From Bacteroidota bacterium (lineage in GTDB: Bacteria; Bacteroidota; Bacteroidia; AKYH767-A; JAHEYN01): a DNA stretch of 64,000 bases. The DNA is taken from contig JAHEYN010000001.1 in assembly GCA_023251555.1 (NCBI GenBank), forward strand, positions 1 to 64,000. Direction: 5' to 3'. Position numbers and translations under genes: made by a program. Of the stretch, positions 9,978 to 32,133 are shown in pieces. Every line of letters begins with the position of its first letter. Position 1 is the first letter of the stretch. The notes under the pieces are model-generated. The model made no database searches and had not been told where the DNA came from. It saw only the letters and a list, made by a program, of their open reading frames with translations.

Positions 9978-9984
9978 TTATACC

Positions 9985-13709: not shown

Positions 13710-13747
13710 AAAAATGGAATCAATTATTAATTCAAACGAAACGGAAG

Positions 13748-14974: not shown

Positions 14975-15106
14975 TTATTTGTCGGTGATGATTAGTTTTT
15001 TTATCGCGATTTCATGATTGTCTTGTGTCAGGTGAACGAAATACAGATTATCCCCGGAGAGAATAACTGTCAGCGAGAAAAGAATTGTCGGGATAAGTAT
15101 TTTCAT
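14975..15106 (-). pseudogene. Collapsed T9SS gene: signal peptide joined directly to a sorting tail
   Basis: A 43-codon frame reads as a signal peptide (MKILIPTILFSLTVILSG) followed at once by the end of a type A T9SS sorting domain (D-N-L-Y-F-V-H-L-T-Q-D-N...K-K-L-I-I-T-D-K). The tail matches that of the SBBP protein at 17101 (LYFIRITQDG...KLVITDN). The passenger is missing, so the gene has lost its whole body by an in-frame internal deletion. A peptide could still be made, but no role is apparent. Upstream on this strand is TATCTTTA-like sequence near 15235-15245 that may be its old promoter. Confidence 0.65.
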
Positions 15107-15372
15107 TTCCTTTTTGTTTTTATGGTTGTAAAGCCGTGGAAGAATTGTCTGCCGAGATCCGTTTCGCATTGTGGAAAACGCTCGGAGCTTTGCGTTGGGG
15201 TGGATTTGAAATCCTCTTTACTGTTCCACACTATAAAGATAATTATTTTGCGCATACATCCAAATTTGTTCGCCAACTGTCATAATCGCAAAGCACTTCC
15301 TAAATAATGAGATGATATTTATCATCCGTCAAAACGATTTCAATCATGGAAAAGCCATTTTGGTCATAATAT
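15107..15372. other. Non-coding stretch with small inverted repeats
   Basis: No gene is supported. It contains the short dyads AACGC...GCGTT (15164-15185 region) and GGATTTGAAATCC (15202-15214); the latter type is common in dispersed intergenic repeats of Bacteroidota as far as I recall. It is the former upstream region of the collapsed T9SS gene. Confidence 0.4.
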
Positions 15373-15449
15373 TTTTAATCCGTCTTTGCGTTTCGTTACG
15401 ACCGCCGGGATGGCATTGGGCTTGCACCGGGATTATACCAATTTATTAA
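15373..15449 (+). repeat. Dispersed repeat copy 1 (diverged)
   Basis: Begins AATCCGTCTTTGCGTTTCG and ends CCGGGATTATACCAATTTATT. It matches the other copies at both ends but has more substitutions (TCCGTC for TCCGCC). It lies 18 bp upstream of the outer-membrane gene at 15468. Confidence 0.65.
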
Positions 15450-15467
15450 ATACCAGGAGTACAGATA

Positions 15468-16241
15468 ATGAAGTTGTTTGTCTGCAATATTATAAAAATA
15501 GATGTATTAATATTTTTTGTTTTTTTTAATACAGGTTCTTTTGCACATGAGCCGCTATATGGTCATGGACCGGATGTTATTTTTAAAGGCGGCTTTGAAC
15601 CACATATGATGTTTCATTTTAAAAAATATGAATTTGAAAATGAACTTGCCTGTGGTTATGGTGTCACCTCAAAGTGGACTTTAGCTCCGGAACTTTCCAT
15701 GTTAACTTCAGGAGGGAAGTCTAAGTTAGACGGATATGTAGTTGAATCCAATTACCGCTTTTTAAAAATTGATAAAACGGGGTTAAGTTATAAAGCTTCG
15801 TTTCTTACTGAGTTATCTATGCCGTTTGAAAACAACGGAGAGAAGGGGTTGCTTTGTGCTTTAACAGCCGGCCAGGAGGCGCTGAAATGGTATTGGTTTT
15901 CGCATATAGGGTTTGAAAAAAACTTAACGTCTAATCTGTGGAGCGAAGGGAACCAAATCACATGGGGACTTACTGTGGGCATTCGTCCTCATAAACCTAA
16001 TTACTATAAGCCCGACCTTGTATTTCTTTTAGAATCAACCGGGAATTTTCATCAAAATTATACTGATGAGGAAGCGAAAATAAATGTAGGTAGTGGAAAT
16101 AATGCGGACATCGCTCCAACTTTTGTTTTCAGTTACCGGAATGCTGCTATCAGAGGTGGTGTGCAATTCGGTGTATTAAATTCCGGAAGTGCAAGTAAAA
16201 CCGGAATAAACACCAAAATCGCAATTGAAATTCATTTATAA
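15468..16241 (+). CDS. Predicted outer-membrane protein of a mer-like operon
   Basis: The 257-residue protein has a signal peptide (to about residue 26) and a mature start H-E-P-L-Y-G-H-G-P-D-V-I-F-K-G-G, a His-containing motif seen in outer-membrane transporter-like proteins associated with copper or mercury genes. The rest alternates in barrel-like strands (W-T-L-A-P-E-L, S-Y-K-A-S-F-L-T-E-L) and closes with a strand I-A-I-E-I-H-L. It is followed, 10 bp later, by MerP-like and MerT-like genes, so the three probably act together in soft-metal traffic. Confidence 0.7.
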   Translation: MKLFVCNIIKIDVLIFFVFFNTGSFAHEPLYGHGPDVIFKGGFEPHMMFHFKKYEFENELACGYGVTSKWTLAPELSMLTSGGKSKLDGYVVESNYRFLKIDKTGLSYKASFLTELSMPFENNGEKGLLCALTAGQEALKWYWFSHIGFEKNLTSNLWSEGNQITWGLTVGIRPHKPNYYKPDLVFLLESTGNFHQNYTDEEAKINVGSGNNADIAPTFVFSYRNAAIRGGVQFGVLNSGSASKTGINTKIAIEIHL

Positions 16242-16251
16242 AACAAACACC

Positions 16252-16575
16252 ATGAGAAATAGAATTTTATTAATTATCGCAACCCTTTGCCTGAGTGTTT
16301 CAGCAATTGCCCAGCACAAACATTATGAAATGAAAGTCGAAGGGCTTTCGTGTCCAATCTGTTCATATGGTTTAGAGAAAAAACTGAAACAGATTGACGG
16401 TATCGGAAATATTAATATTGAACTCACAACAGGCATTGTAACTTTTACAATGAAAGAAGGAAAAACTGTAACAGAGGAGCAAATGAATAAAAAAGTTAAA
16501 GATGCCGGTTACACATTTAAATATTTGAAAGAAATAACCACCGATAATATGAGGGAAAATGAAAACCCAAAATAA
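16252..16575 (+). CDS. MerP-like periplasmic HMA protein
   Basis: The ATG at 16252 opens a signal peptide ending A-I-A-Q; a longer frame from 16225 runs through the upstream gene and is unlikely. Mature residues follow the HMA pattern H-Y-E-M-K-V-E-G-L-S-C-P-I-C-S-Y-G-L, with the Cys pair as metal ligands. The protein is 107 residues and resembles MerP, which hands Hg2+ to MerT. The gene overlaps the MerT-like gene by 17 bp, as expected for a coupled pair. The C-terminus carries an extra acidic tail (TTDNMRENENPK). Confidence 0.85.
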   Translation: MRNRILLIIATLCLSVSAIAQHKHYEMKVEGLSCPICSYGLEKKLKQIDGIGNINIELTTGIVTFTMKEGKTVTEEQMNKKVKDAGYTFKYLKEITTDNMRENENPK

Positions 16576-16951
16576 TTTTTTAAGCGTATTGTCACTTTTC
16601 ACTTCATTCTCTACATTGCTCTGTTGTGCTCTTCCTGCATTATTAGTCGTACTTGGGTTGGGCGCTGTGGTTGCAGGTGTGGTTTCCGGTTTCCCCTTTT
16701 TAATCACGCTTAGCAAAAACAAAGGATGGGTGTTCGCATTTACATTCTTTGTTATGGCAATCAATTTTTATATGATGTACTTCAGAAAGAAAAAACAAGT
16801 GAGTTGCGAATACATACCCGGTAAAAAGGAATCTGCATGCGATGTTGCTTCCCGTTGGAGTAAAATAATTTTATGGGTCTCATTTTTTATTTTACTTATT
16901 GGTTTTTTTGCTTCTTATCTTCTAATTCCAATCCTGCGGTTATTCGAATGA
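16559..16951 (+). CDS. MerT-like inner-membrane metal transporter
   Basis: A 130-residue protein with three or four hydrophobic segments. The first carries S-T-L-L-C-C-A-L-P-A-L-L-V, the vicinal Cys pair in a helix that defines MerT-type transporters. A cytosolic loop holds a second pair more widely spaced (V-S-C-E-Y...S-A-C-D-V). Together with the MerP-like gene that it overlaps this forms an uptake or relay module for Hg2+ or another thiophilic metal. No merA reductase or merR is seen in the window, so the physiological metal is uncertain. Confidence 0.8.
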   Translation: MKTQNNFLSVLSLFTSFSTLLCCALPALLVVLGLGAVVAGVVSGFPFLITLSKNKGWVFAFTFFVMAINFYMMYFRKKKQVSCEYIPGKKESACDVASRWSKIILWVSFFILLIGFFASYLLIPILRLFE

Positions 16952-16962
16952 TATTGTTTTTT

Positions 16963-17038
16963 TTAATCCGCCTTCGCGTTCCGCTACGGCGGACAAGAGG
17001 GTCCGGGGCGTGTCCCGGGGTTAATACCAATTTATTGG
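16963..17038 (+). repeat. Dispersed repeat copy 2
   Basis: TTTAATCCGCCTTCGCGTTC at the left, a TCCGCC...GGCGGA stem, and CCGGGGTTAATACCAATTTA at the right. It lies between two convergent genes, the MerT-like gene and the SBBP protein, where it could also serve as a bidirectional terminator. Confidence 0.8.
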
Positions 17039-17100
17039 ATAACACAGCAATTAAAAAATAGCATCAATCGGACTTTCAAAATGAAGAGTCAACGATGTGG

Positions 17101-18795
17101 TTAGTTGTCGGTAATTACTAATTTGTCTATGGAAAAAGTTTTACCGTCTTGCGTTATGCGAATGAAATACAGTCCGCTTGGTAAATTGTTTCGGTAAAAA
17201 ATTATTTTTTCTCCAAAGAGATTGTCTATTTGAATCACTATCTGCCCGAGGGAATTGTAAGCCGAAAGAGTTGCGTTACAGAATGGAATATCTGATTGTA
17301 AAACTGCCTGCATGGAGAAGGGGTTTGGATAAAGTGAATGGGGAGTAATTTTACCGTCTATGTAATGCGTTCCTGTTTCTGGGCCATTCATTTTTGAGAG
17401 AAACAGGTCATAAGCACCTGCACTGGTATTATTTAAGGTGATAGATCCAAACGTTAGTGTGGGGCTTCGAAACGCTCCTGTCAAATATAGATTTCCAGAA
17501 GCATCTACCTCAACACATTCTGCCGGGTCAGCATCCGTACTTCCTACGCTTTTTGCCCAGAGAACATTTCCATTAGCATCGTATTTCGCAAGAAACAAAT
17601 CAGAAGAACCATTATTTGTGAGGGTGGTGGATCCGAAAGTAAGGATGGAACTTTGAAATCCGCCTGTCAGATAACTATTCCCTAACATGTCCACTGCAAC
17701 AGACTTAGCCAAATCTCTACTCGCCCCTCCATTACCCTTCGCCCATAGTACATTCCCGTTAACATCATATTTTGCAAGGAACATATCGTCATTACCTCCG
17801 TTTGTCAAAGTCGTAGAACCAAAGATAAGCGTGGGGCTATCAAACCACCCTGCCACATAACTATTTCCAGAAGTATCAACCGCAACGAAATTTGCCCAAT
17901 CGTTAACGCTTCCTCCCGCACTTTTCGCCCATAACACATTTCCGTTAGAATCGTATTTCGCAAGAAATATGTCACCATAAGCAATATTTGATAAAGTAGC
18001 AGAGCCAAATGTAATTGCTGCGTTTCTAAATTCGCCTGTCAGGTAAGTATTTCCAAAAGCATCAACCGCAACGGAGGTTGCCCTATCGTCACTTGCCCCC
18101 ATGGCTCTTTTTGCCCACAGTACATTGCCATTGGCATCATATTTTGCAAGAAAAGTATCAAATCCGCCTCCACCATTTGTATTCATCAAAGTAGTGGTTC
18201 CAAAGGTAAGAGTATAACTTTGAAATTCTCCTGCAAGATAGCCATTCCCGGAAGCATCTACCTTAACGGAATTTCCGGCATCTAAACCTGCTCCAGCAGC
18301 ATTTTTTGCCCACAGTACATTGCCATTAGAATCATATTTTGCAAGAAACATATCGTAAGTTATATTCATATTATTCGGATTTGTAAGGGTCAAAATAGTA
18401 GATCCGAAGATTATGGTGTCACTTGAAAAATCTCCCGTTACATAACTACTCCCGGATGCATCTACTGCAACAGACATTGCCCTGTCATGATCCGAGCCAC
18501 CTGCTCTTTTGGCCCATAGTACATTGCCATTAGCATCATATTTTGCAAGAAACATATCAGCAGTAACGCCTGAGTTGTCGGCATTTATTAAAGTAGTAGA
18601 TCCAATAATAATTGTCGGACTCCAAAAATACCCTGTAATATAACTATTGCCAGAAGAATCTATTGCCAGATTTTTTGTTACATCTTCCGCCACTCCTCCC
18701 GCACTTTTCGCCCACTGCCATGTTTGTGAAATGGCAGGGTTGACCCCAGCTGTCATGGTGAGAAAAATTGATAGGATTAGCAAACGTTTTTTCAT
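17101..18795 (-). CDS. Seven-repeat SBBP propeller protein with T9SS type A sorting tail
   Basis: The 564-residue protein has a signal peptide (residues 1-23) and seven SBBP-type repeats of ~65 residues, each beginning W-A-K-x-A-G-G and containing V-A-V-D-x-x-G-N-x-Y-x-T-G-x-F, with a linker F-L-A-K-Y-D-x-N-G-N-V-L. Seven repeats fit a single seven-bladed beta-propeller. The last ~80 residues (from L-Y-P-N-P-F-S) are a type A T9SS sorting domain ending in K-L-V-I-T-D-N. It should be a surface or secreted binding protein. It follows the ICMT-like gene by 17 bp on the same strand. Its tail resembles the collapsed gene at 14975. Confidence 0.88.
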   Translation of the reverse strand: MKKRLLILSIFLTMTAGVNPAISQTWQWAKSAGGVAEDVTKNLAIDSSGNSYITGYFWSPTIIIGSTTLINADNSGVTADMFLAKYDANGNVLWAKRAGGSDHDRAMSVAVDASGSSYVTGDFSSDTIIFGSTILTLTNPNNMNITYDMFLAKYDSNGNVLWAKNAAGAGLDAGNSVKVDASGNGYLAGEFQSYTLTFGTTTLMNTNGGGGFDTFLAKYDANGNVLWAKRAMGASDDRATSVAVDAFGNTYLTGEFRNAAITFGSATLSNIAYGDIFLAKYDSNGNVLWAKSAGGSVNDWANFVAVDTSGNSYVAGWFDSPTLIFGSTTLTNGGNDDMFLAKYDVNGNVLWAKGNGGASRDLAKSVAVDMLGNSYLTGGFQSSILTFGSTTLTNNGSSDLFLAKYDANGNVLWAKSVGSTDADPAECVEVDASGNLYLTGAFRSPTLTFGSITLNNTSAGAYDLFLSKMNGPETGTHYIDGKITPHSLYPNPFSMQAVLQSDIPFCNATLSAYNSLGQIVIQIDNLFGEKIIFYRNNLPSGLYFIRITQDGKTFSIDKLVITDN

Positions 18796-18812
18796 GCAAA
18801 TCAGATAAGGAT

Positions 18813-19562
18813 TTAAGACCTGTCGTCTTCGTCCAGCAGGGAGGTACGTTTTTTCACCAGTTTGATAAGCAGCACAACAACTACGACAAAGACAAAAATA
18901 AAACTTTCTGTACGGGAAACGGCCATTGTTGCCGGTGTTACTGCAAAGGAATTTTTCAGGACATCAATGTAAATAAAGCCGGATACTGCAGCCAGAACCC
19001 CGGAATACTCCCTCCGTATTACACTTTTGAAAGAAAAAGGGATGCTGCTTTTCCTGTACCCTCTTATCCCCGGGATAAAGGCCGGGACCCTGAGAGACCA
19101 GTCCGTGAAAGCCTGTCCAAATTTTTTTTCTAGAAAACGCTCTTCGGCAAACATGATGCGCTCGTAATAGAGCCAGAAGAGCAGGGAAACAATCAGTACA
19201 AAAAAGATGTTCTCCGTGTAAAGCACAATACCAATCCACATCAGGTAGTTGCCAAGGTATAAGGGATGCCTGAGCACCGAATAAATACCGGAAGTGTTCA
19301 ACTGCTCGGCCACCTGTTCTTTTGTATTTCTGCCCGAAGTGCCTTTGGGGGTGGTTCCTATGGTAATAGCTCTGATGCAGAAGCCGATGGCGCACAGCAC
19401 TATCCCGGAATACGTGTATAGTTTAACAACAACCGGGGAAATGTTGTTGTAGTCAGTGCCATAAATAAAAGGGATTGCGGCAACGAAGAGTACTAACGGA
19501 AGAAATCCCCTGCGCTTAAAAAGCCAGTTTCCTTCATTTTCAAAGGAGTGCAGCAGGGCCAT
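18813..19562 (-). CDS. ICMT/PEMT-like membrane methyltransferase
   Basis: A 249-residue protein with several membrane segments. The SAM-binding core of the isoprenylcysteine carboxyl methyltransferase-like family is clear: L-N-T-S-G-I-Y-S-V-L-R-H-P-L-Y-L-G-N-Y, and E-E-R-F-L-E-K-K-F-G-Q-A-F-T-D-W near the end of the domain. An upstream loop has T-T-P-K-G-T-S-G-R-N. Relatives methylate lipids, isoprenoids or lipid A phosphate (LmtA of Leptospira is of this type), so a lipid substrate is likely but unspecified. A C-terminal extension adds two more hydrophobic helices. Confidence 0.75.
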   Translation of the reverse strand: MALLHSFENEGNWLFKRRGFLPLVLFVAAIPFIYGTDYNNISPVVVKLYTYSGIVLCAIGFCIRAITIGTTPKGTSGRNTKEQVAEQLNTSGIYSVLRHPLYLGNYLMWIGIVLYTENIFFVLIVSLLFWLYYERIMFAEERFLEKKFGQAFTDWSLRVPAFIPGIRGYRKSSIPFSFKSVIRREYSGVLAAVSGFIYIDVLKNSFAVTPATMAVSRTESFIFVFVVVVVLLIKLVKKRTSLLDEDDRS

Positions 19563-19637
19563 AAATTATTTTTTCACGAAGTTACTTTTTTTTAATAATA
19601 TTTTTTCTATTATTGCCGGAAGTATTACCACTGTCAG

Positions 19638-20411
19638 ATGGCCAGGAAAAGTAAGAAAGCGGCTAAAGCAAAGCCTGTAAAGAAAAAGACCAAAGCTAAA
19701 CCTGCCGGGAAACCCGGGAAGAAAGTTTCCGCCTCCGCACGGAAGAAAGCGGCTCCTCAAAAACCTTTGAAGAAAGCTCCCGCCCTGAAGGTTTTAAAGA
19801 AGAACCCTTTTCCGAAGCCTGCAGCCCCAAAAACTCTTAAAAAGGCCCCGGTGAAGGCAATTGTGGCAAAGAAGGCTGCTACCCCGAAGAGGCCTTCACT
19901 TCCCAAGCCTGCTGCCGCGCTACCTCTTTCCCCTGCAAAAAAGCTTCCCCTTAAATCCACTCCAAAACTACCGCATCTTCCCAAGGAAAAAATATATGAC
20001 AACAAATATGCCGAGCACCTTCCAGCCGGGTCCAAAAAGCCATACCAGATTGAGTTTGAAATAAAGGCGTCCCCCCGGATGCTGTATAATTACCTGAGCA
20101 ATCCCAGCGGCCTCTCAGGCTGGTTTGCAGATGACGTGACATACCTTAACGGCATTTTTATTTTTCACTGGAACGGTAGTGAAGAAAGAGGAAGGCTGGT
20201 TGTGAACCGTGAAAACAAGACATTACGTTACCAGTGGACAGACAGGAATGACAACAGCTACTTCCAGTTTGATATTGTCCAGGATGATATCACTTCGGAC
20301 ATCTCCCTTCTCATCACTGATTTTGCATCAGACGACAGGGAACGTGCAGAAAACATCATGGTGTGGGAAAATCAGGTACATGCACTTATGCAGATTCTCG
20401 GATCTCATTAG
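19638..20411 (+). CDS. START-like domain protein with a histone-H1-like basic tail
   Basis: A 257-residue protein in two parts. Residues 1-115 are almost only Lys, Ala and Pro with repeated L-K-K-A-P and P-K motifs, like histone H1 C-terminal tails or bacterial HctB-type proteins. Residues ~130-257 match the START-like domain common in Bacteroidota: Y-Q-I-E-F-E-I-K-A-S-P-R-M-L-Y-N-Y-L, G-L-S-G-W-F-A-D-D-V and F-H-W-N-G-S-E-E-R-G. Usual family members are close to 130 residues and lack this tail. The basic arm suggests binding to DNA, RNA or acidic envelope polymers. The 3' end overlaps the convergent gene by 26 bp. Confidence 0.85.
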   Translation: MARKSKKAAKAKPVKKKTKAKPAGKPGKKVSASARKKAAPQKPLKKAPALKVLKKNPFPKPAAPKTLKKAPVKAIVAKKAATPKRPSLPKPAAALPLSPAKKLPLKSTPKLPHLPKEKIYDNKYAEHLPAGSKKPYQIEFEIKASPRMLYNYLSNPSGLSGWFADDVTYLNGIFIFHWNGSEERGRLVVNRENKTLRYQWTDRNDNSYFQFDIVQDDITSDISLLITDFASDDRERAENIMVWENQVHALMQILGSH

Positions 20412-21015
20412 GAAGTATATCAAGTACAAGGGAAAAGGTCTCCTTTCCATACTCAATTACTTTTTGCCACTCCGCCACTTCAAGCCTGCGTGCTATTTTA
20501 ATAAAGGGTGATTCTTGTAAAAGCCCGCGTGTTTTATTTCCCTGAAGTTCATCCAGTAACAGGTAATTATCAGACTCAAAATGATATTCCCAGGGGGTCT
20601 TGTTTACACAGAGGTAAAAACCTTTGTTGTGCAGCGCAGCAATTTTTTCAGTAACATGAACTTGCCTGCTTTTCCACAAATCTCCTCCAAGGTGAAATGA
20701 AAAAGAGAAATGCTTTCCCCACCACAGCATGCTCCGGAAGGCGAACACAGACTCCTTCCCGAACATCGCCGGAAAGTCAATGACAATATAAGGAAGGCCT
20801 TTATAGTTTTCTCCTCTGCTTATTTTTTCCCTGAAAAGGCTGGTGCCGGGCGGGAAAAGACCCGGGTGGTCTGCAATAATCGGTCTTAAAGATTCTGCGA
20901 GTTCTGAAAAGATCATAATTATCTTGGATGTTATGGCAGCTTTTTTGCGGAAGAAGCCGGTGTCTCCGAGCGCCTCTGATTCCTCGGGAGATATAGTTAT
21001 CTTTGTATTCTGCAC
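20386..21015 (-). CDS. Conserved hypothetical protein
   Basis: I take the GTG at 21015 as start (209 residues), because the ~94 extra upstream residues of the longer frame run antisense through the LptG-like gene and look non-coding. The protein is cytosolic in appearance, with a helical N-terminus (F-F-R-K-K-A-A-I-T-S-K-I-I-M-I-F) and an alpha/beta body (Y-K-G-L-P-Y-I-V-I-D-F-P, R-S-M-L-W-W-G-K-H-F-S-F-S-F-H-L-G-G). No catalytic or binding motif is recognised. It is divergent from the permease (30 bp gap) and overlaps the START-like gene tail to tail. Confidence 0.65.
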   Translation of the reverse strand: MQNTKITISPEESEALGDTGFFRKKAAITSKIIMIFSELAESLRPIIADHPGLFPPGTSLFREKISRGENYKGLPYIVIDFPAMFGKESVFAFRSMLWWGKHFSFSFHLGGDLWKSRQVHVTEKIAALHNKGFYLCVNKTPWEYHFESDNYLLLDELQGNKTRGLLQESPFIKIARRLEVAEWQKVIEYGKETFSLVLDILPNEIRESA

Positions 21016-21045
21016 TGCACAGGGGTTATAACCTCCAAATATACA

Positions 21046-22482
21046 TTGAAGAAAATATATAAACTGGTTCTTGTTTCTTACCTGGGTCCTTTCGTCCTGA
21101 CATTTTTCATTTCCATCTTTATTCTGCTCATGCAATTTCTCTGGAAATACGTGGATGACCTTGTCGGCAAAGGGCTGGAATGGCATGTAATTATCGAACT
21201 CCTCCTGTATGCTTCGGCAAGCCTGGTGCCGCTTGCACTTCCGCTTGCCATACTTCTCTCTTCGGTGATGGCCTTCGGAAACCTCGGCGAAAATCATGAA
21301 CTTGAAGCCTGTAAAGCGGTTGGGGTGTCCCTGCAGAAGGTGATGACTCCGCTTATCGTTTTTTCAGTCCTGGTGAGCCTGCTTGCGTTTTACTTTGCCA
21401 ACAATGTGCTGCCATATGCGAACCTCAAGATGGGCACTCTTCTTTATGATGTCCGCCAGCAGAAACCTGCTTTTGCTCTTAAAGAAGGATTTTTTTACAA
21501 TGGCATAGAAGGGTACAGCCTGAAAGTCGGAAAGAAGGACAGGGATGGTAAAACCCTTTATGATATTATGATATACGATCACAGCCTCGGGATGGGAAAC
21601 ACCAAACTTATCACAGCAAAGTCGGGAAATATGGCCAAATCCGATGACGACCGTTTCCTGGTGCTTACATTGCATAATGGATCAAGCTACGAGGAAATCA
21701 TAAACACCGACAGGCAGAGAAGACCTGCCGGACTCTCAAGACCTTTTCTCAGAACTGATTTCGAGGAAGAAGTAGTGAGGTTTGACCTTTCGGGGTTCCG
21801 CTTCACCCGGACAGACGAGGATCTGTTTAAAGACAATTACCAGATGCTTAACCTCAGTCAGCTTGGTGCTGCGGAAGACACGCTTGCCGGAAAAATGAAC
21901 GAACGGATTGAAAGCTTTGTGAATGAGTTAAAGGTGAATTTCCTTTTCAAAGTGGATTCCCACCTCTATGCTGAAGCTCCTTCCTGTGAATTTTCAGGTA
22001 AGGGAATCCTTTATAATTTCCCCGTGTCCGACCGTGCGAAGATTGCCGAAATGGCTGCGGCCAACTGCAGGAGTGCAAAATTGTACATCTCCAATTTCCT
22101 GGATGATATTGACTCAAGGGAGAAAACCATAATCAGGCACCAGGTGGAATGGCACAGGAAACTTACTTTCTCTTTTGCATGCATGGTGCTTTTCTTTATC
22201 GGTGTCCCGTTGGGTGCTATTATCAGAAAGGGCGGGCTCGGTATTCCTATGATCGTTTCTACCGTATTCTTCGTGATATTTTATCTTATTTCCATTTCCG
22301 GTGAGAAGTTTGCGAAGGAAGGGATTATTCCTCCCATAGCGGGAATGTGGTTAGCTTCTGCAGTACTTCTTCCTCTTGGAATCTTTTTTACAGTCAAGGC
22401 TACAAGAGATTCTTCGCTGTTTGACATTACTGCATACATGAATCTGCTGAAAAAGATTTTCAGAAAAATACTTTTCAGATGA
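21046..22482 (+). CDS. LptF/LptG-family LPS transport permease
   Basis: A 478-residue protein starting with TTG at 21046. Three N-terminal helices (I-Y-K-L-V-L-V-S-Y-L-G-P-F onward, with N-H-E-L-E-A-C-K-A-V-G-V-S near residue 85, a typical coupling-helix motif), a large periplasmic beta-jellyroll domain (about 130-370), and three C-terminal helices identify the LptF/LptG type (YjgP/YjgQ). It forms the membrane part of the exporter that moves LPS from the inner membrane with LptB. Its stop overlaps the start of the following glycosyltransferase by 4 bp, linking it with envelope synthesis. Confidence 0.9.
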   Translation: MKKIYKLVLVSYLGPFVLTFFISIFILLMQFLWKYVDDLVGKGLEWHVIIELLLYASASLVPLALPLAILLSSVMAFGNLGENHELEACKAVGVSLQKVMTPLIVFSVLVSLLAFYFANNVLPYANLKMGTLLYDVRQQKPAFALKEGFFYNGIEGYSLKVGKKDRDGKTLYDIMIYDHSLGMGNTKLITAKSGNMAKSDDDRFLVLTLHNGSSYEEIINTDRQRRPAGLSRPFLRTDFEEEVVRFDLSGFRFTRTDEDLFKDNYQMLNLSQLGAAEDTLAGKMNERIESFVNELKVNFLFKVDSHLYAEAPSCEFSGKGILYNFPVSDRAKIAEMAAANCRSAKLYISNFLDDIDSREKTIIRHQVEWHRKLTFSFACMVLFFIGVPLGAIIRKGGLGIPMIVSTVFFVIFYLISISGEKFAKEGIIPPIAGMWLASAVLLPLGIFFTVKATRDSSLFDITAYMNLLKKIFRKILFR

Positions 22483-23669
22483 AAATTCTCCAGCTCTGCA
22501 ACCGGGTTCCTTTTCCCCCGCTTGATGGGGGCAGCCTTGCCATATGCAATCTCACGAAAGCTTTTATTGATGCGGGCCACAGTATTTCCATGGCAGTTCT
22601 GGATCCTTCCGGGCGAGATACCTCCGTCGGCAAAAAATATCATGGACTTGCATCATTTTACAGCGTACCGGTTGACACTTCCGTGCATGTTTCCGGTGCA
22701 ATAAGAACCCTTCTTACAGGAAAATCATATAATGTTACCCGCTTTATCTCCCGTGAGTTTACTAGGCTTCTCAAGGAAGTGCTTGTGCGTGAAAATCCGG
22801 ATGTGGTACAGGTGGAGGGGTTGTATATGAGTCCCTATATTGAAACAATCCGTGAGAATTCCTCGGCGAAGATCGTTCTCCGCACACATAATGTTGAACA
22901 CAGGATATGGAAGCAGATGAGCGGGGCGGCTTTCCCGGGCCTGAAGAAAATCTATCTTGGGATTCTTGCACGCCGGCTGAAAGTGTATGAGGAGGACCGG
23001 CTGAATTTATCCGATGCCATAATCCCCATTACGCCTTTGGATGAGGTTGCGCTGCGGGAACTGGGTTGCAGGGTTCCCATGCATACGGCCGCCTTCGGGA
23101 TCAATGTTGCTGAATACATTCCTTCGGGCATTATGGATATTCCTTCTGTATTTCATCTTGGCGCCATGGACTGGAAACCCAATGCCGAAGGGGTGAAGTG
23201 GTTTCTTGAAAAAGTTTGGCCTGATGTGCATAGCAGGATGCCCGGGTTGAAGCTCCATCTTGGCGGCAAAGGGATGCCTTCAGGCCTCCTGAAGAAAGCG
23301 CCGCCGGGAGTGGTTGTTACAGGCGCAATTGCGGATGCAAGACAATACATGGCTTCCCGCCAGATCATGATTGTGCCACTGCTTTCCGGGGGAGGGATGC
23401 GTGTGAAAATTATTGAAGGTATGGCGATGGGAAAAGCAATTATATCCACCCCCGTGGGGTGTGAAGGTATCAGCTGCACTCCCGGGAAAGATATTCTCGT
23501 TGCTGCAACCCCGGCTGAACTTGCAGAGAAAATTATACATTGCGCATCCAACCCGGATTTCTGCCTGGCTATTGGGAAAAATGCAAGAACGCTTGCAGAG
23601 AATGAATATAACAACAGGCTGATTGCTGCCCGGCTGCTCGGCTTTTATGAAAAACTCATTTCCCGCTAA
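22479..23669 (+). CDS. GT4-family glycosyltransferase
   Basis: A 396-residue two-domain (GT-B) enzyme. The N-terminal domain begins L-C-N-R-V-P-F-P-P-L-D-G-G and includes R-T-H-N-V-E-H-R-I-W, a typical acceptor-side motif. The C-terminal nucleotide-sugar domain has F-H-L-G-A-M-D-W-K-P-N-A-E-G and P-L-L-S-G-G-G-M-R-V-K-I-I-E-G-M-A-M-G, the region of the conserved E-x7-E type. It overlaps the LptG-like gene by 4 bp and the next glycosyltransferase by one base, so the three are co-translated. Likely works in polysaccharide or glycolipid assembly; the sugar is unknown. Confidence 0.9.
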   Translation: MKILQLCNRVPFPPLDGGSLAICNLTKAFIDAGHSISMAVLDPSGRDTSVGKKYHGLASFYSVPVDTSVHVSGAIRTLLTGKSYNVTRFISREFTRLLKEVLVRENPDVVQVEGLYMSPYIETIRENSSAKIVLRTHNVEHRIWKQMSGAAFPGLKKIYLGILARRLKVYEEDRLNLSDAIIPITPLDEVALRELGCRVPMHTAAFGINVAEYIPSGIMDIPSVFHLGAMDWKPNAEGVKWFLEKVWPDVHSRMPGLKLHLGGKGMPSGLLKKAPPGVVVTGAIADARQYMASRQIMIVPLLSGGGMRVKIIEGMAMGKAIISTPVGCEGISCTPGKDILVAATPAELAEKIIHCASNPDFCLAIGKNARTLAENEYNNRLIAARLLGFYEKLISR

Positions 23670-24850: not shown

Positions 24851-25406
24851 CAATGTTTGCGGATGAAAAGGCGGATCTTTTCTTGCTGATGATTTTAGCT
24901 ATCCGTGGGTGCAGAAACCAAATGCCTACCGGAAAAAAAATCATTAAGACAAATTCTTTTGAGAGACTTTTAAAAGACACAATCGATCTTGCTTCGGAGG
25001 AAACAATCAGCAAAGCCACAAAGTAGTAAGCGTTCAGGAGCGCTATGATGGCATAGATGGTCATGGGAACCATTACAACGAGTCCTATAGCAGGATTGGA
25101 AAGGCGTTCTTCAAGTTTGCCTGTAACCTGCATATATAAAGCAGCCGAAAGAATTATCGTATAGATGTACAGATAGCCGATATTAAAGCGGAAAAAAGAA
25201 AGGTTGATTTTCATTTTCTCCCGGAACTTAATGAACATGTTTATTCCCGCTGCATTAAGCCAGGAAAGTAACAGAAGAATCCAGATGCATAAACTTATAA
25301 CAGCTGCCTTGTGATTTTCTTTCAGCAGGTAGTTCAGGGGAAGTGCTGCCGGCAGGGCCACTACCGCAAAAACAATCCAGCTTCTTAGTGTTAAAAGGTA
25401 TTTCAT
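24834..25406 (-). CDS. Multi-pass membrane protein, unknown function
   Basis: I use the ATG at 25406 (190 residues); the frame extends to 25481 but the extra part looks like intergenic sequence. Five or six hydrophobic segments are seen, for example W-I-V-F-A-V-V-A-L-P, V-I-S-L-C-I-W-I-L-L-L-L-S-W-L, Y-I-Y-T-I-I-L and F-V-L-M-I-F-F-P-V-G-I-W-F-L. The C-terminus is basic (P-R-I-A-K-I-I-S-K-K-R) and so probably cytosolic. No family is recognised. Confidence 0.65.
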   Translation of the reverse strand: MKYLLTLRSWIVFAVVALPAALPLNYLLKENHKAAVISLCIWILLLLSWLNAAGINMFIKFREKMKINLSFFRFNIGYLYIYTIILSAALYMQVTGKLEERLSNPAIGLVVMVPMTIYAIIALLNAYYFVALLIVSSEARSIVSFKSLSKEFVLMIFFPVGIWFLHPRIAKIISKKRSAFSSANIATSDL

Positions 25407-25490
25407 CGGAAATGATTCGGCTGCAGATTGTAAAAATACAAATATTATTGAAATGCCCTTTAAAAGGAGAAAAAGAGACAAAATACCTTG

Positions 25491-25781
25491 TTATGAAGTG
25501 CTTTTTGTTAATAATCCCTGTACTTTCTCTTTTACGATATCTGCGAAAGGCCTTTTTTGAATCTTGCTTTCGAGCCATGAGATAAAGTCAAAATAATCAA
25601 GCACCTTAGCTTCAAAAGGATCCCTCATTATTTCTTCCAATTCTGTTTGGAGCTCTTTGAAAGCTGCTATAAGGTCTTTCTCATTACTTATTTTGGGAAT
25701 CTTTTTGCGCATAAAGTCAAGAATAGAAGTTTCCGCTTTATATAAACGTGTCTTTTTTTTAAGATAATGATAAAATTTCAA
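25491..25781 (-). CDS. Small helical protein, conserved hypothetical
   Basis: A 96-residue protein with a TTG start at 25781. It appears mostly helical and soluble, with E-K-D-L-I-A-A-F-K-E-L-Q-T-E-L-E-E-I and D-P-F-E-A-K-V-L-D-Y-F-D-F-I-S-W-L-E-S-K-I-Q. It resembles short hypothetical proteins often seen in Bacteroidota. It is on the same strand as the membrane protein downstream. Function unknown. Confidence 0.55.
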   Translation of the reverse strand: MKFYHYLKKKTRLYKAETSILDFMRKKIPKISNEKDLIAAFKELQTELEEIMRDPFEAKVLDYFDFISWLESKIQKRPFADIVKEKVQGLLTKSTS

Positions 25782-25954
25782 ACTTAAATTTGAATAACTT
25801 GAAAAGATTGAAAATTAGAATTTACATAATTTAAATGAAAAATAAATACAAAAGACCAATATTTTGATTTTTTAGCATATATATTATATATTTTGTTATA
25901 TTAGAATTAGCATAATAATAAAAAAAAGGTTTCTCCCGAAACTATACTCTTATA

Positions 25955-25962
25955 TATGTTTG
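25955..25962 (+). promoter_or_regulatory. Bacteroidota -7 box before the T9SS gene at 26033
   Basis: TATGTTTG fits TAnnTTTG. A weak TTTC lies 21 bp upstream (25930-25933). The 215-bp gap here is very AT-rich and contains nothing else recognisable. Confidence 0.4.
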
Positions 25963-26032
25963 CATTATATAGTTCCCCGGAATCTGTAATTACAATATGA
26001 AATCAGACAATAATAAAAGGAGACCCCAAACC

Positions 26033-29000
26033 ATGAAAAAAATCAACTTGATTATTTCTTTGTTCTGTGCAACTGTAGTTGCAGGAACACAAACAGCAAA
26101 AGCAACCTTTACAGTAACCATTTCCTCAGGAACACAAGTCGCGGCAGCTAACATTCCATGCACAGGCTCAACACAAACTCCTGTAGTGGCTTTCTTTATT
26201 CAGAATACAGGAACTCAAAATGTAACGTTTACTAAATATTCCTTTCAAACCCAGGGAACATTTGTTGCTGCTGATGTTCTCAAATTTCAATTATGGTATA
26301 ACACGGTCAATACTTTTGCCGGTTCTACGCAAGTGGGGACAGACCTTGCTAACAGCTCAGGCCCATATTACCACGATGTATTAGGTGGTTTTACACCCTG
26401 GTCTCAGGTGGTTCCTACCGGAACCACCTACTATTATTGGTTAACAGCAGACTTTTCTGCAACAGGGACTGTGGGGAATACATTTTATATTTCAACGACA
26501 TTGCCAAAATTTACTTTTGCGGCTACTGCACCCACCCAAACCATAAGCCCCGCTATCACAGCCGGAGGAACACAAACAATCGTTGGAGCTGCTACAAACA
26601 AATTAAACATAGAACCTCCAAATTATACAATTCTTCCCGTTTACTGGAACGATTTTGTTCTTGACGCCAATGCTACCCAAGCCACGACAAATGTTTATAT
26701 ACATAAATTTAATGTAACGGCAAATGGTAATTCAGGCTCAGGAACTGTAACAAACTTTAGTTTTACCACGGCCGGAAGTTATGTCGCATCTGATATTGTT
26801 AATTTTAAAATCTGGTCAAGCTCAACTAATGGATTTGGAACGGCAACCTTATTAGCAACTAATGCAACTCCCGGAGGCCCCGGAGTGCAAACTTTTCCCG
26901 CTTTTTCACAAGTGGTAAACCACGCTACAGGCAGATTCTTTTGGATAACCATGGATGTTGCAGCAGGTGCAGTTGCGGGTCATACCATCACTGTTAGTGC
27001 ATCGGCAAGTACAGATATAACTACTACCATGATTAAGTCAGGATCAGCCCCTGCCAGTGGGACACAAACCATTATAGCATCTGCTCCGATATGGTCCACC
27101 AATAGTACGGTGAATAATATTTTTGATCAGGGAAAAGGAGGGATACGCAGCCAAATGCAAATTATCAGTGATGGTAGTGGTGGAGCAATTATGGTATGGG
27201 AGGACGACAGAGATGATAGTTATGCCACAGACATTTATGCACAACGAATAAATTCGGCAGGAGCTGTGGTATGGTCGGCGGCAGATGGAGTCCCTGTTTG
27301 TACGGCTGTTGGCAGTCAAAGCGACCCACAACTTGTGAGTGATGGTAGCGGAGGGGCTGTTATCGTGTGGAGTGATAGCAGGAGTACTTCGACTATTTAT
27401 GCCCAACGGATAAATGCCAGTGGTGTGGTTCAGTGGACAGCGGATGGAAGGATTATGGCCAGCCCGACTGCTAATGCATATTGGCCACAAATTGTCAGTG
27501 ATGGCGGTACCGGATATATCATATGCTGGTGGAATAATGGCGATACCTGGGCACAACGGATAAATTCCAGCGGTGTGGTTCAATGGACAGCCAATGGGAA
27601 AGCTGCTGCTGTATATGATCCTTTATTGGGAGGATTAGAGAATGAATATCCTCAAATGATTGCTGACGGAGCAGGAGGTGCCATTATTACCTGGATTAAT
27701 TTGGATTATGGAGCATCGTTGTATGATAATATCTGTGCACAGCGGATTAACAGCTCAGGTACACCCCTGTGGACTAACTATGGGATACCCGTTTGTATGG
27801 CAATGGATCTTGAAAGATATCCGCAAATTGTAAGCGATGGTACTGTTGGGGGATCTATTATATCATGGGAAGATCATAGGGGGAATGTTGGAGATTATAA
27901 AATATATGCTCAACGACTGGATGGCAGTGGAAATCCACTTTGGACAATTGATGGAGTACCTGTTACCCAAACCCTGGGGCTTGGGGACGAATATTATCAA
28001 TATTTCCCCAATACATACACGATTACTCCAATGAACAAAAAACCCATGATTGCCGATGGTGCCGGGGGAGCAATTATGAGTTGGATAGATTATCGGAATA
28101 GTTCATGGCCTGATATCTATGCACAACGAATCAGCAGTACAGGAACATTGCTTTGGGGAGCCGATGGTGTGGCTATTTGCACAGAGCCGACAGAAGAACA
28201 ATGGAATCCTACCGTTACCAGTGATGGTACTGTTGGCGGTGCTTATATAACCTGGGAAGATTACAGAAACGGTTCAGCTCCCGGTATGGATGTTTACGCT
28301 CAACGAATAAATGCCAGCGGAGTGGTGCAGTGGGTAACGGATGGAATTGGGGTGGGGACGGCTGCTGGAGAACAATCGTTACCCATAGCTGTAACCACGA
28401 CCTGTGGACAAATTGTTGCATGGAATGATTTATCTGCCGGACCTAATTACTGGGGGTCTTTTGCCCAAAAAATAGATGGTACAGGCGTATTGGGCGGCAT
28501 TTCTTGTGTTCTTCCGGTAGAGATGCTATCATTTACTGGATATAATAAAAACAATACAAACATATTAGACTGGAAAACTGCAAGTGAAACAAACAGTGAT
28601 TATTATATAATTGAACGGGGCAATAATGGAAACTCTTTTGAGTCAATAGGAAAAGTAAAAGGGGCAGGGAATAGTAATACAATAATGAGTTACGGGTATT
28701 CGGATAACAATTATTCTCAGGGGGTAAATTATTATCGTCTCAAGCAAGTTGACTTTGATGGTAATTACACTTATTCCAAAACGATATCGATTAGTAATCT
28801 ACAAATCAGTAAATCGTCAATTAGTATTTATCCTGTTCCATGTAATCAAGAACTGAATTATGAATTATACTCGGAAGGAAATTCTTTGACAAATATTACT
28901 GTGACGGACGTATTGGGAAATGTTGTGATACAAGAACAAATAAAAACAAAACGGGGAATAGCTAAATCAAAGTTGAACATTGAGAATTTATCTGAAGGCG

Positions 29001-29062
29001 TGTATTTTTTAAGAATGGAAAATGGAACAGATCAGACACAGATTAAATTTATAAAGCAGTAA
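26033..29062 (+). CDS. Large secreted repeat protein with type A T9SS sorting tail
   Basis: The ATG at 26033 begins a signal peptide (MKKINLIISLFCATVVAG); an ATG at 25997 adds 12 residues and is possible. The ~1009-residue protein has two related ~170-residue beta domains first (F-T-V-T-I-S-S-G-T-Q-V and I-H-K-F-N-V-T-A-N-G). About eight repeats of ~50 residues follow, each with S-D-G-x-G-G-A-I-x-x-W and I-Y-A-Q-R-I-N-x-S-G-x-x-x-W, probably a propeller. The end has an L-P-V-E-M-L-S-F-T-G-Y linker module and a T9SS tail. It is a surface or secreted protein of unknown ligand. The downstream gene starts 10 bp after it. Confidence 0.8.
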   Translation: MKKINLIISLFCATVVAGTQTAKATFTVTISSGTQVAAANIPCTGSTQTPVVAFFIQNTGTQNVTFTKYSFQTQGTFVAADVLKFQLWYNTVNTFAGSTQVGTDLANSSGPYYHDVLGGFTPWSQVVPTGTTYYYWLTADFSATGTVGNTFYISTTLPKFTFAATAPTQTISPAITAGGTQTIVGAATNKLNIEPPNYTILPVYWNDFVLDANATQATTNVYIHKFNVTANGNSGSGTVTNFSFTTAGSYVASDIVNFKIWSSSTNGFGTATLLATNATPGGPGVQTFPAFSQVVNHATGRFFWITMDVAAGAVAGHTITVSASASTDITTTMIKSGSAPASGTQTIIASAPIWSTNSTVNNIFDQGKGGIRSQMQIISDGSGGAIMVWEDDRDDSYATDIYAQRINSAGAVVWSAADGVPVCTAVGSQSDPQLVSDGSGGAVIVWSDSRSTSTIYAQRINASGVVQWTADGRIMASPTANAYWPQIVSDGGTGYIICWWNNGDTWAQRINSSGVVQWTANGKAAAVYDPLLGGLENEYPQMIADGAGGAIITWINLDYGASLYDNICAQRINSSGTPLWTNYGIPVCMAMDLERYPQIVSDGTVGGSIISWEDHRGNVGDYKIYAQRLDGSGNPLWTIDGVPVTQTLGLGDEYYQYFPNTYTITPMNKKPMIADGAGGAIMSWIDYRNSSWPDIYAQRISSTGTLLWGADGVAICTEPTEEQWNPTVTSDGTVGGAYITWEDYRNGSAPGMDVYAQRINASGVVQWVTDGIGVGTAAGEQSLPIAVTTTCGQIVAWNDLSAGPNYWGSFAQKIDGTGVLGGISCVLPVEMLSFTGYNKNNTNILDWKTASETNSDYYIIERGNNGNSFESIGKVKGAGNSNTIMSYGYSDNNYSQGVNYYRLKQVDFDGNYTYSKTISISNLQISKSSISIYPVPCNQELNYELYSEGNSLTNITVTDVLGNVVIQEQIKTKRGIAKSKLNIENLSEGVYFLRMENGTDQTQIKFIKQ

Positions 29063-29072
29063 TACAATTCCC

Positions 29073-31085
29073 GTGAAAAAAACTTCTGATAATTTGTTAA
29101 ATAATGAAAGTGTTCAAAATTTTGTTCTGCTAATTACTTTTATTTTTTTGTCTTGTAGAATAAATGCACAACCCACTATCACTTCCTTTGCTCCAACCTC
29201 CGGACCGGTTGGAACAACTGTAACGATAACCGGAATCAATTTCAACAGTACACCTGCCAATAACATAGTTTTTTTTGGAGCCACTATGGCAACGGTAACT
29301 GTTGCAAGCACTACTTCGCTTACAGTTACAGTCCCCAGTGGAACCAACTATGAATACATATATGTTACTAACCTCAGCACTAACTTAACTGCTTATTCTG
29401 CACAACCATTTATAGTAACCTTTAATTGTGGTTCCATCGCTTTTAGTCCGAAAGTTGATTTTACCGTAGGAACAAATCCTTATAGCGATGTTATAGCTGA
29501 TATAGATGGAGACGGCAAGGCGGATCTTGTGGTTTCGGATTATAATTCATCTGCTCTTTCGGTATTAAGAAACACCAGCTCGGTCGGTACCATTTCCTTT
29601 GCTGCCAAAGTGGATTTTGCAATGGGAACAAATCCATGGGGTGTTGCTGTGGGAGATATAGACGGAGACGGCAAACCAGATGTTGCTGTTACCCGTCAAA
29701 ATAGTATTCCCAACTATTATGTTGCTGTATACAGGAACCTCAGCACTCCCGGAACAATTTCCTTTGCTGCTCATGTGGATTTTGTTTTAGGAAATTTGCC
29801 TTATTTTGTTGCCATAGGTGATTTGGATGGAGATGGCAAGCCCGATATGGCAGCACCAAATTGGATTAACTCCGTTGTTTCAACATTCAGAAATCTCAGT
29901 ACACCGGGAACTATTTCTTTTGCTGCCAAAGTCGATTTTACAACAGGATCCTCCCCTTATGATCTTGACATAGGCGATTTGGATGGAGATGGGAAACCTG
30001 ACCTTGCAATAGCGAATTATAGTTCCAATACTTTTTCAGCACTAAGAAACACGAGTACGAGTGGAACAATTTCCTTTGCTGCTAAAGTGGATTTTACAAC
30101 AGGAAATAATCCTGCATGTGTTGAGATAGGTGATTTGGATGGAGACGGTAAACCCGATCTTGCGGTAACTAATTATACGGCTACTTCTTTTTCAACATTC
30201 AGAAATCTCAGTACACCGGGCACTATGTCTTTTGCAGCTAAAGTTGATTTTCCTACGGCAACCTGGACTTACGGCATTGCGATGGGTGATATGGATGGAG
30301 ATGGCAAGCCGGATGTTGCAGCAGTGAATTATACAGGTGCTTCCGTTTCAACCTTCAAAAACACAAGCACAAGCGGCACTATATCTTTTGCAGCCAAAGT
30401 TGATTATACTACAGGGCCTAGTCCTTACTGTGTTGCAGTGGGTGACTTGGATGGAGACAATAAAGCCGATATGGCAGTGGCAAATGCAGGGGCATCTACT
30501 GTTTCAACATTCATAAACCCATGCGTTCCTCTCCCCATTCAATTATCAGATTTCAGAGGATACTCAGGACAACAGGAAAATCATTTGAACTGGACAACAG
30601 TATCTGAAATCAACAATGATTATTTTATTGTTGAGCGAAGCAACAACAATGGGAAAGATTTTGAAGAAACAGGAAAAGTAAAAGGAGCAGGGAATAGCAG
30701 TATAGTAATGAGTTATGAGTATTCGGATAACAATTATTCTCAGGGGATAAATTATTATCGTTTGAAACAAACGGACTATGATGGCAACTATACTTATTCC
30801 CAAACGATTTCGATTAGTAATCCACAAATCAGTAAATCGTCAATTAGTATTTATCCTGTTCCATGTAATCAAGAACTGAATTATGAATTTTACTCGGAAG
30901 AAAATTCATTGACAAATATTACTGTGACAGATGTATTGGGAAATGTTGTTGTACAAGAACAAATAAAAACGAAACGAGGAATAAACAAATCAAGGCTCAA
31001 CATTGAGAATTTATCTGAAGGTGTGTATTTTTTAAGAATGGAAAATGGAACAGAGCACTCACCAATTAAATTCGTGAAAGAATAA
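29073..31085 (+). CDS. IPT/TIG plus seven FG-GAP repeats, T9SS type A protein
   Basis: A 670-residue protein starting with GTG. After a signal peptide there is an IPT/TIG domain (I-T-S-F-A-P-T-S-G-P-V-G-T-T-V-T-I-T-G) to about residue 115. Seven FG-GAP-like repeats follow, each with F-A-A-K-V-D-F and a calcium-loop-like D-x-D-G-D-G-K-x-D. Seven such repeats fit an integrin-like propeller. The last ~170 residues, from L-P-I-Q-L-S-D-F-R-G-Y, are nearly identical to those of the gene before it, at both protein and DNA level (a 66-bp identical stretch). Likely a surface adhesion or binding protein. Confidence 0.88.
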   Translation: MKKTSDNLLNNESVQNFVLLITFIFLSCRINAQPTITSFAPTSGPVGTTVTITGINFNSTPANNIVFFGATMATVTVASTTSLTVTVPSGTNYEYIYVTNLSTNLTAYSAQPFIVTFNCGSIAFSPKVDFTVGTNPYSDVIADIDGDGKADLVVSDYNSSALSVLRNTSSVGTISFAAKVDFAMGTNPWGVAVGDIDGDGKPDVAVTRQNSIPNYYVAVYRNLSTPGTISFAAHVDFVLGNLPYFVAIGDLDGDGKPDMAAPNWINSVVSTFRNLSTPGTISFAAKVDFTTGSSPYDLDIGDLDGDGKPDLAIANYSSNTFSALRNTSTSGTISFAAKVDFTTGNNPACVEIGDLDGDGKPDLAVTNYTATSFSTFRNLSTPGTMSFAAKVDFPTATWTYGIAMGDMDGDGKPDVAAVNYTGASVSTFKNTSTSGTISFAAKVDYTTGPSPYCVAVGDLDGDNKADMAVANAGASTVSTFINPCVPLPIQLSDFRGYSGQQENHLNWTTVSEINNDYFIVERSNNNGKDFEETGKVKGAGNSSIVMSYEYSDNNYSQGINYYRLKQTDYDGNYTYSQTISISNPQISKSSISIYPVPCNQELNYEFYSEENSLTNITVTDVLGNVVVQEQIKTKRGINKSRLNIENLSEGVYFLRMENGTEHSPIKFVKE

Positions 31086-31094
31086 CACCATAGT

Positions 31095-31193
31095 GTGAAA
31101 AAACATATACGAATCTGTATAATATTGCACGTTGCCTTTTCATCTTATGCACAAACAATACTTTCAAATAACCTTATGAAGCGCTTTTGTTAA
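31095..31193 (+). pseudogene. Orphan signal-peptide remnant of a lost secreted gene
   Basis: GTG at 31095 opens 32 codons reading as a signal peptide (K-K-H-I-R-I-C-I-I-L-H-V-A-F-S-S-Y-A-Q-T) then L-S-N-N-L-M-K-R-F-C and a stop. It begins 9 bp after the upstream T9SS gene, exactly where a third gene of that operon would start. No continuation is found downstream, where a dispersed repeat begins at 31251. Confidence 0.5.
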
Positions 31194-31250
31194 TAATTGT
31201 ACCGATCACATACAATTTTATCATTTGGTGTTCGTTTCCATTGCTGTGGA

Positions 31251-31325
31251 ATAAATTGGTATTAACCCCGGGGCAAGCCACGTCCCTTCTTGTCCGCCGA
31301 AGCGGAATGCGAAGGCGGATTAAAC
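31251..31325 (-). repeat. Dispersed repeat copy 3 (inverted)
   Basis: The reverse complement reads TTTAATCCGCCTTCGCATTC to CCGGGGTTAATACCAATTTA and matches copy 2 closely at both ends. It lies directly before the gene at 31364, in opposite orientation to copy 4 on the other side of that gene. Confidence 0.8.
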
Positions 31326-31363
31326 TTTACAGTCACAGGCCAGTCTAATTTAAAATCCAAATC

Positions 31364-32020
31364 ATGATGCTCATGAAAACAAAACTCATTGCCGTTTGTC
31401 TTCTTGCCTCCGGAAGCTGTTTCGCCCAGGATAAGGCTGAAGACGAAATCATACACTCCAATTTTATCTACGGTAGTCCCTTCGGCATCTTTGTCAACAG
31501 GTTTACATTATCTATGGAGCATAACCTTCCTTCGCATAATAGCTTTATGGTTACAGGGAGCCTTTCACTGTCTGACAACCTGGAGAAGAGCGAGAGAGGA
31601 GGCGGAGGCGAATTCCAGTACAGGGTTAACATGAGCAAGCACCCCGACCGTTCATCAAAATACAGTTTCTTTTATTTTGCGCCCTATATGCAATACAGAT
31701 ATATGGATGTTATTGACGGCCAGTATGGCAATATCTATTTTGCGAATAACAATGGAACTTATGCTTCACACTATTCTTATTACAACGAGCAGCGGATTAT
31801 TCATTCTGTTTCCGGGGGATTGCTCCTGGGGATAAGGCTTACCAACAAAAGCAACCGCCTGAGTTTTGATCTCTTTGCCGGGGGTGGAATGAAATATTCC
31901 GATGTTTCCTATAAGAATCATCAGGAAACGTATTCTTATGCCCGGAACTACAGTATGTTCGATGCGGGGTATACAGGAGTCGTTCCCCGTGGCGGCTTCC
32001 AGGTAGGGGTTTCATTCTGA
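31364..32020 (+). CDS. Predicted outer-membrane or periplasmic beta protein between inverted repeats
   Basis: A 218-residue protein (ATG 31364, alternative 31370) with a signal peptide ending S-C-F-A-Q. The mature part is rich in Tyr/Phe/Ser with strand-like stretches (F-Y-F-A-P-Y-M-Q-Y-R-Y-M) and ends G-G-F-Q-V-G-V-S-F, a typical closing barrel strand. It resembles small outer-membrane beta-barrels that Bacteroidota carry in many copies. The gene is bracketed by oppositely oriented copies of the dispersed repeat (31251-31325 and 32022-32133), so the whole 880-bp unit could move or invert as a block. Confidence 0.6.
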   Translation: MMLMKTKLIAVCLLASGSCFAQDKAEDEIIHSNFIYGSPFGIFVNRFTLSMEHNLPSHNSFMVTGSLSLSDNLEKSERGGGGEFQYRVNMSKHPDRSSKYSFFYFAPYMQYRYMDVIDGQYGNIYFANNNGTYASHYSYYNEQRIIHSVSGGLLLGIRLTNKSNRLSFDLFAGGGMKYSDVSYKNHQETYSYARNYSMFDAGYTGVVPRGGFQVGVSF

Positions 32021-32021
32021 G

Positions 32022-32133
32022 TTGATCCGCCTTCGCGTTCCGCTTCGGCGGACGGGAAGGCTTGGTTTAATCCTCCCCGCTTGCTGCGGACATCTGAGTC
32101 CTGATCTTGCTCCGGGGTTAATACCAATTTATT
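32022..32133 (+). repeat. Dispersed repeat copy 4 (with a longer centre)
   Basis: Starts GATCCGCCTTCGCGTTCCGC with the TCCGCC...GGCGGA stem and ends CCGGGGTTAATACCAATTTA. It carries about 35 bp of extra sequence in the centre compared with copies 2 and 3. It starts one base after the gene at 31364. Confidence 0.78.

Follow-up and report, generated by a model that had tools for sequence, protein, structure and literature searches.

The best-described systems resembling the repeats reported here are REPINs and BIMEs, which are doublets of REP sequences (PMC3116915). The palindrome of a classical REP is tagged on one side with GTAG or CGTC (PMC3733652), and for the TnpA-REP proteins of subclass 2.6, which correspond to RAYT group 5 of Bacteroidetes, atypical REPs are reported beside the genes (PMC6006769). 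Our element is like REPINs and BIMEs in being short, intergenic, non-coding and present in many copies, in consisting of palindromic units that fold as a single strand, in forming tandem clusters, and in a spread that would depend on a transposase encoded elsewhere. It is unlike them in having a conserved 3' tag of its own and no GTAG-type tag, in a proposed branched fold of two or three hairpins where they have two inverted REPs, and in that its cognate RAYT is only a candidate. Miniatures derived from IS200/IS605, to which we liken the element by description and not by sequence, share its subterminal hairpins, undetectable target duplication and apparent fixed target context, but no autonomous IS with its ends was found. 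In the same phylum, the BrickBuilt MITE of Porphyromonas gingivalis also comprises non-coding dispersed repeats; it differs in being described as inverted-repeat MITEs with a minisatellite (PMC4596501). We conclude, with a probability of about 0.55, that the repeats are a non-autonomous REP/REPIN-like mobile element mobilized in trans by an HUH (Y1) enzyme. The family is apparently undescribed so far and of a kind already known; it behaves as a REPIN wherever tests were possible, and we set it apart from the REPIN family because the classical REP tag is absent and no cognate enzyme is proven.

In the window, by which we mean the whole 64,000-nt stretch of DNA analyzed, the initial annotation had singled out four stretches with common ends and variable centers, all said to lie beside outer-membrane or T9SS genes. 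The four were confirmed in place as members of direct and inverted repeat families (D12, D20, I1, I3, and I4), and covariance model R1 gave exactly four matches in the window, at the same four places. R1 was seeded with 12 sequences, of which one was the window copy at 32021-32133 and none the other three. A 20-nt 5' motif likewise matched three times in the window at ≤3 mismatches, versus 0 matches in 100 shuffles. The canonical short form, with hairpin A, hairpin P2, and the 3' tag, lies at 16962-17036 on the plus strand (72.3 bits, E 2.7e-14), and its core has 2 mismatches to the consensus of 28 short forms. A degenerate short form occupies 15374-15447, also on the plus strand (37.5 bits, E 2.9e-6), and the short form at 31250-31324 is on the minus strand, opposite in direction to the other three (53.3 bits, E 6.3e-10) and 89% complementary to 16962-17036 (inverted repeat I1). 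The long form at 32021-32133, on the plus strand, holds hairpin A, P1, P2, and the 3' tag (111.9 bits, E 2.2e-23, as a model seed). On the same strand, its hairpin A (TCCGCC...GGCGGA), placed from the sequence and the predicted fold, spans 32026-32052, and its 3' tag TACCAATTTA, which lies outside the proposed paired stems and is the most conserved part across genomes, spans 32122-32131. The center is better called modular than variable, consisting of hairpin A and a linker followed by either P2 alone or P1 and P2.

The proposed association with outer-membrane or T9SS genes fits two of the four copies, which adjoin the T9SS sorting-domain genes at 17101-18795 and 29073-31085. The copy at 32021-32133 is directly 5' of thioredoxin reductase (32238-33182); for 15374-15447, those neighboring proteins that were tested gave no secretion-domain match. 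Within the window itself, a link to secreted-protein genes is not general. We also discarded a composite transposon made of the inverted pair 31250/32133 around the ORF at 31364-32020; by a rough hand estimate, close pairs of copies are about as frequent as under random spacing. Three other features of the window may be recorded. Positions 28621-28920 and 30644-30943 form a direct repeat of 300 nt with 88% identity, which covers the 3' parts of two neighboring genes, each with a T9SS sorting domain at its end. Lys/Ala-rich short tandem units of 33 nt occur at 19653-19775, inside the ORF at 19638-20411. Finally, positions 1-16000 have a G+C content of 32-39% versus about 40-52% over the remaining window, a contrast that possibly reflects recent acquisition.

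The commonest form of the element is the short one, of about 76 nt, built from TTTAATCC, hairpin A, hairpin P2, and GGGGTTAATACCAATTTA(T/A)T and reading TTTAATCCGCCTTCGCGTTCCGCTACGGCGGACAAGAGGGTCCGGGGCTTGCCCCGGGGTTAATACCAATTTA(T/A)T. Its core from AATCC to ATACC is most often 64 nt long (28 of 83 copies), and two 64-nt cores at separate sites are identical to each other. The long form has the extra hairpin P1, GGTTTAATTCCCCGC...GCGGAAATCTGA, between A and P2; its TTGGT(T/A)...P1 segment and its 3' end resemble inverted units, and the short form is without P1. A third form has a different 3' end, GATGATCAAATTCCCTTAAGATACCTCGCTGCTTGCGGCGAGGTAGTTCATT, with examples in the genome containing the window (G000) at C27:74864 and C16:31506. 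The alternative 3' hairpin, AAGATACCYCGCTGCTTGCGGCGRGGTDGTTCATT, is also found alone in an IMG/VR viral contig (L249, around 4592-4621), and may be an independent, widespread repeat that has become joined to the element. Tandem copies, in units of about 70 nt, join with ...AATTT running directly into AATCC (for example, at C4:56616), and four copies have an inverted loop in hairpin A. Conservation extends from the TTT before AATCC to AATTTA(T/A)T, with flanks outside it at about background; base frequencies in the tail are biased upwards, as many sites were chosen through it. The conserved ends are TTTAATC and TACCAATTTA, neither of them a tag of the GTAG or CGTC type. The element contains no gene and is probably moved by an enzyme encoded elsewhere.

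The genome-wide count bears out a dispersed repeat. G000 comes from an uncultured bacterium (2.84 Mb, 55 contigs) and contains 121 copies by the covariance model. At ≤2 mismatches the 3' tail GGGGTTAATACCAATTTA is matched 69 times, and at ≤3 mismatches the 5' motif AATCCGCCTTCGCNTTCCGC is matched 129 times; the reversed control pattern of each gives 0. Merging the matches listed for the two motifs gave at least 108 clusters, the listed places, which were examined with about 1.5 kb of flank per side. A simple ORF-based call puts 96 of the 108 in intergenic gaps, where the four gene-orientation classes number 28, 26, 22, and 20, with 22 divergent gaps, and of the 192 flanking genes, 94 are on the same strand as the element. 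There is no orientation preference of copies relative to neighboring genes. The element's strand in G000 tends to positive GC skew (73 of 108 listed places by pooled contig skew, p 3e-4, with several radii tried), a bias not shown by the genes of this genome. Of 77 pairs of neighboring copies, 48 agree in strand; beyond 10 kb, agreement is no more frequent than by chance. A preference for the lagging strand is known for Y1 elements (PMC6006769); for our element it is suggested in G000 only, and the strand bias was not replicated in the other copy-bearing genomes (17 of 32).

Beyond G000, the distribution of the element across Bacteroidia orders is patchy. A search of 41 relatives from the same order did not find the tail, single matches being near the control count. 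A 15-mer search of 395 genomes of the class picked out one copy-bearing genome from a different order (G402), and single matches outside G000 and G402 were again near the control count; those single 15-mer or tail matches that were inspected were without the repeat. Scanning GTDB contigs for exact occurrences of CCGGGGTTAATACCAATTTA returned three contigs, of which L034 and L036 belong to uncultured Bacteroidales MAGs and L035 is labeled Moraniibacteriota. By the covariance model there are 3 copies in G402, 20 in G443 (the genome of L034), and 10 in G444 (the genome of L036), and the matches listed span the full model length. In the genus of G402, the sole one representing its order, 1 of 36 genomes has copies, namely G402 itself. 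Common to G000, L034, L036, and G402 are the 5' TTTAATC and the 3' GGTTAATACCAATTT; the intervening hairpins differ, and the copies of G402, G443, and G444 are without hairpin A. A sequence search for the core in viral contigs, plasmids, phages, and Rfam gave no match, and a sequence search of the open-access literature, with subscription papers outside its scope, did not find the element. As for L035, positions 934-1025 of this contig, binned as Candidatus Moraniibacteriota, carry the tail exactly, together with a match to the model that is full-length but weak (28.8 bits); misbinning or transfer from one phylum to another would account for this.

Further evidence comes from the fold. The 31 copies of G402, G443, and G444, found with the model and aligned without it by MAFFT, were tested against a structure drawn by eye that comprises P0 (TTAATC/GGTTAA), P1 extended by CCCGG/CCGGG, and P2. 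In this structure 85.6% of cells pair, a percentage favored by construction as the structure was drawn on the same sequences. Two-sided changes are seen in 37 cells, versus 15.8 ± 3.0 in shuffled alignments, and the covariation score is 0.196, versus 0.121 ± 0.009; 0 of 500 shuffles were as high in either case, in a comparison that is inflated by kinship among the copies. Slid versions of the structure were all lower on these measures. Pairs with two-sided change (9 versus 6.9) and pair types (29 versus 25.4) are not clearly above the shuffles. P0 barely varies across the 31 copies and hence has no covariation support either way. Hairpins P1 and P2 are kept by compensatory changes, and it is mainly from these two that the support comes.

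Comparison of occupied and empty sites, which the initial annotation had suggested, was possible between G443 and G444, which are 74% and 82% identical over two kilobase-scale stretches and are related, which makes their orthologous sites comparable. A copy lies at 2046-2125 of L280, and L295 matches both sides without the element, giving a near-clean empty site. If the element is taken to run from AATCTC to TATT, the preinsertion stretch is 31 nt in both genomes, an equality that depends on the chosen boundary, as the flanks are diverged. Two more gaps have the element in G443 and lack it in G444 (L230/L308 and L239/L309), and are too diverged for the join to be placed precisely; one insertion site is common to both genomes (L233/L218). 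In G444, a low-order CCTGCTT-like array occupies 10505-10652 of L309, in a gap that holds the element in G443. We read the polymorphic sites as showing a mobile element that is gained and lost with defined ends, the direction at any one site being our inference.

A search for target-site duplications gave no signal in 80 flank pairs, the best z being 2.9 among many combinations of length and offset. The permutation test is blind to an invariant duplicated TTTA, against which the sites with 5' TTG argue, as these have no G at the 3' side. Of the sites with 5' TTC, three of four also have TTC at the 3' side, an agreement that may be chance. The absence of a target-site duplication is expected of Y1 elements.

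Candidate partner enzymes are present in G000, which has three Y1 transposase matches, on C29, C23, and C18. The C29 gene is an intact RAYT with the motifs NHLH and YIHQNP, that of C23 is a truncated relative, and the C18 protein has DHIH and YIMSQKEHH; going by the motif table of PMC6006769, we read the RAYTs as subclass 2.6 and C18 as subclass 1.2. The initial annotation had suggested looking for a RAYT or transposase gene with matching ends; an intact RAYT does exist in this genome, outside the window, but full copies do not flank it. No full element borders any Y1 gene in the DNA examined around these genes, and the copy nearest the RAYT is weak (25.6 bits) and about 6 kb off. Before the RAYT stands CCCCGTTCGGCGTAGCGTCCCGCTACGTCGCTGAAGGCCTGG..., and after it, where the contig end truncates its 3' side, comes ...CGACGTAGCGGG, with which this REP begins again in inverted orientation. 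The corresponding RAYT gene of G402 has a similar REP on both sides. This second, simpler REP family, with a CGTAGCGTCCCGCTACG core, lies at about 28.8-29.65 kb of C29 (L032) and recurs at about 9.96 kb of C31 (L151).

The element can also be compared with the atypical REPs of subclass 2.6 systems (PMC6006769): G000 has an intact gene with the motifs NHLH and YIHQNP and a flanking palindrome similar to hairpin A, but what flanks this RAYT is that simple REP and a diverged A-P1 segment and not full copies. The perfect form of hairpin A, CGTAGCGTTCCGCTACG, differs from the RAYT-flanking REP core CGTAGCGTCCCGCTACG at 1 base of 17. The alignment of the RAYT flank with the A-P1 segment scores 46, versus 21.7 ± 4.0 for dinucleotide shuffles (0 of 1000 as high), the match having been seen before its test was made. 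Among 1790 tiles of other G000 DNA, only two score higher, both over the weak copy at 3729-3814 of L078. Judged from these resemblances, hairpin A is plausibly RAYT derived. The P1-P2-tail core is tied to no enzyme; we do not tie it to the RAYT because the Y1 genes found in G443 and G444, one in each of these MAGs of unstated completeness, are not class 2. A subclass 1.2-like Y1 protein was considered as the partner and rejected: one was found in each copy-bearing genome, but in the DNA examined copies never border such genes, and G001, a relative in which copies are absent, also has a related Y1 match, interrupted by an in-frame stop.

Taken as a REP/REPIN-like element, the repeat would have ends able to pair with each other (TTAATCC and GGGTTAA) around two or three hairpins, with the tag TACCAATTTA hanging at the 3' end. 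An HUH-type (Y1) transposase encoded elsewhere would recognize the folded single strand through its hairpins and tag, and insertion would take place between TTT and A(T/A)T with no duplication of the target. In G000, hairpin A has the look of a captured REP of the resident subclass 2.6 RAYT, and the P1-P2-tail core is the unit common to the genomes. An HUH (Y1) nuclease acting in trans is the leading candidate mechanism, the best available but unproven. A tentative, less probable reading makes the P0-P1-P2-tail core a separate miniature single-strand element, moved by an enzyme other than a class 2 RAYT, passed between Bacteroidia lineages, and capturing other repeats into composites. If that were true, the composites would have taken up the resident RAYT's REP and another hairpin, one that also occurs in an unrelated viral contig.

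Three other explanations can be weighed against these. The initial annotation had offered bidirectional terminators, to which, together with other cis-regulatory RNA structures that are similar by chance, we give hardly any credence. GC-rich hairpins in intergenic gaps with a structure kept by covariation are what such signals would look like, but convergent, divergent, and codirectional gaps are about equally represented among the listed places (22 of 96 intergenic gaps are divergent), the consensus has no T-run after the hairpins, and no Rfam family matched. Moreover, sites are polymorphic between G443 and G444, and at the one position examined for conservation, upstream of trxB, five same-order relatives have no model match. 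The evidence speaks strongly for a REP/REPIN-type, non-autonomous mobile element and against terminators; copies may have a side effect on transcripts. The REP-like, dispersed reading that had also been offered is upheld by more than 100 copies, compensatory hairpin changes, and sites polymorphic between two related genomes.

A MITE, that is, an internally deleted DDE transposon whose transposase acts on terminal inverted repeats, would likewise be small, non-coding, and abundant with defined ends, and identical copies exist; TTAATCC/GGGTTAA could serve as a short, imperfect inverted repeat. We nevertheless consider it unlikely. The end pairing covers only about 7 nt and includes a G-T wobble, duplications were undetected in the 80 flank pairs, and the 5' TTG variants have no mirror at the 3' end. 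The internal hairpins covary, which those of MITEs need not do, and an autonomous element with the same ends was not seen, the search having been for Y1 transposases. Very unlikely, in our estimate, is SINE-like copying via an RNA intermediate, with a reverse transcriptase supplied in trans, a reading with which the highly conserved 3' end, the covarying fold, the undetected target duplication, and the possible replication-strand bias in G000 would all be compatible; we know of no bacterial precedent for such an element of this size, which counts against it.

Short mobile repeats in Bacteroidota are poorly described. Since its ends are defined, its fold covaries, its sites are polymorphic, and its occurrence across orders is patchy, the family reported here offers a concrete system for asking which enzyme moves the atypical REPs of Bacteroidetes and whether such repeats combine modules of different origin.
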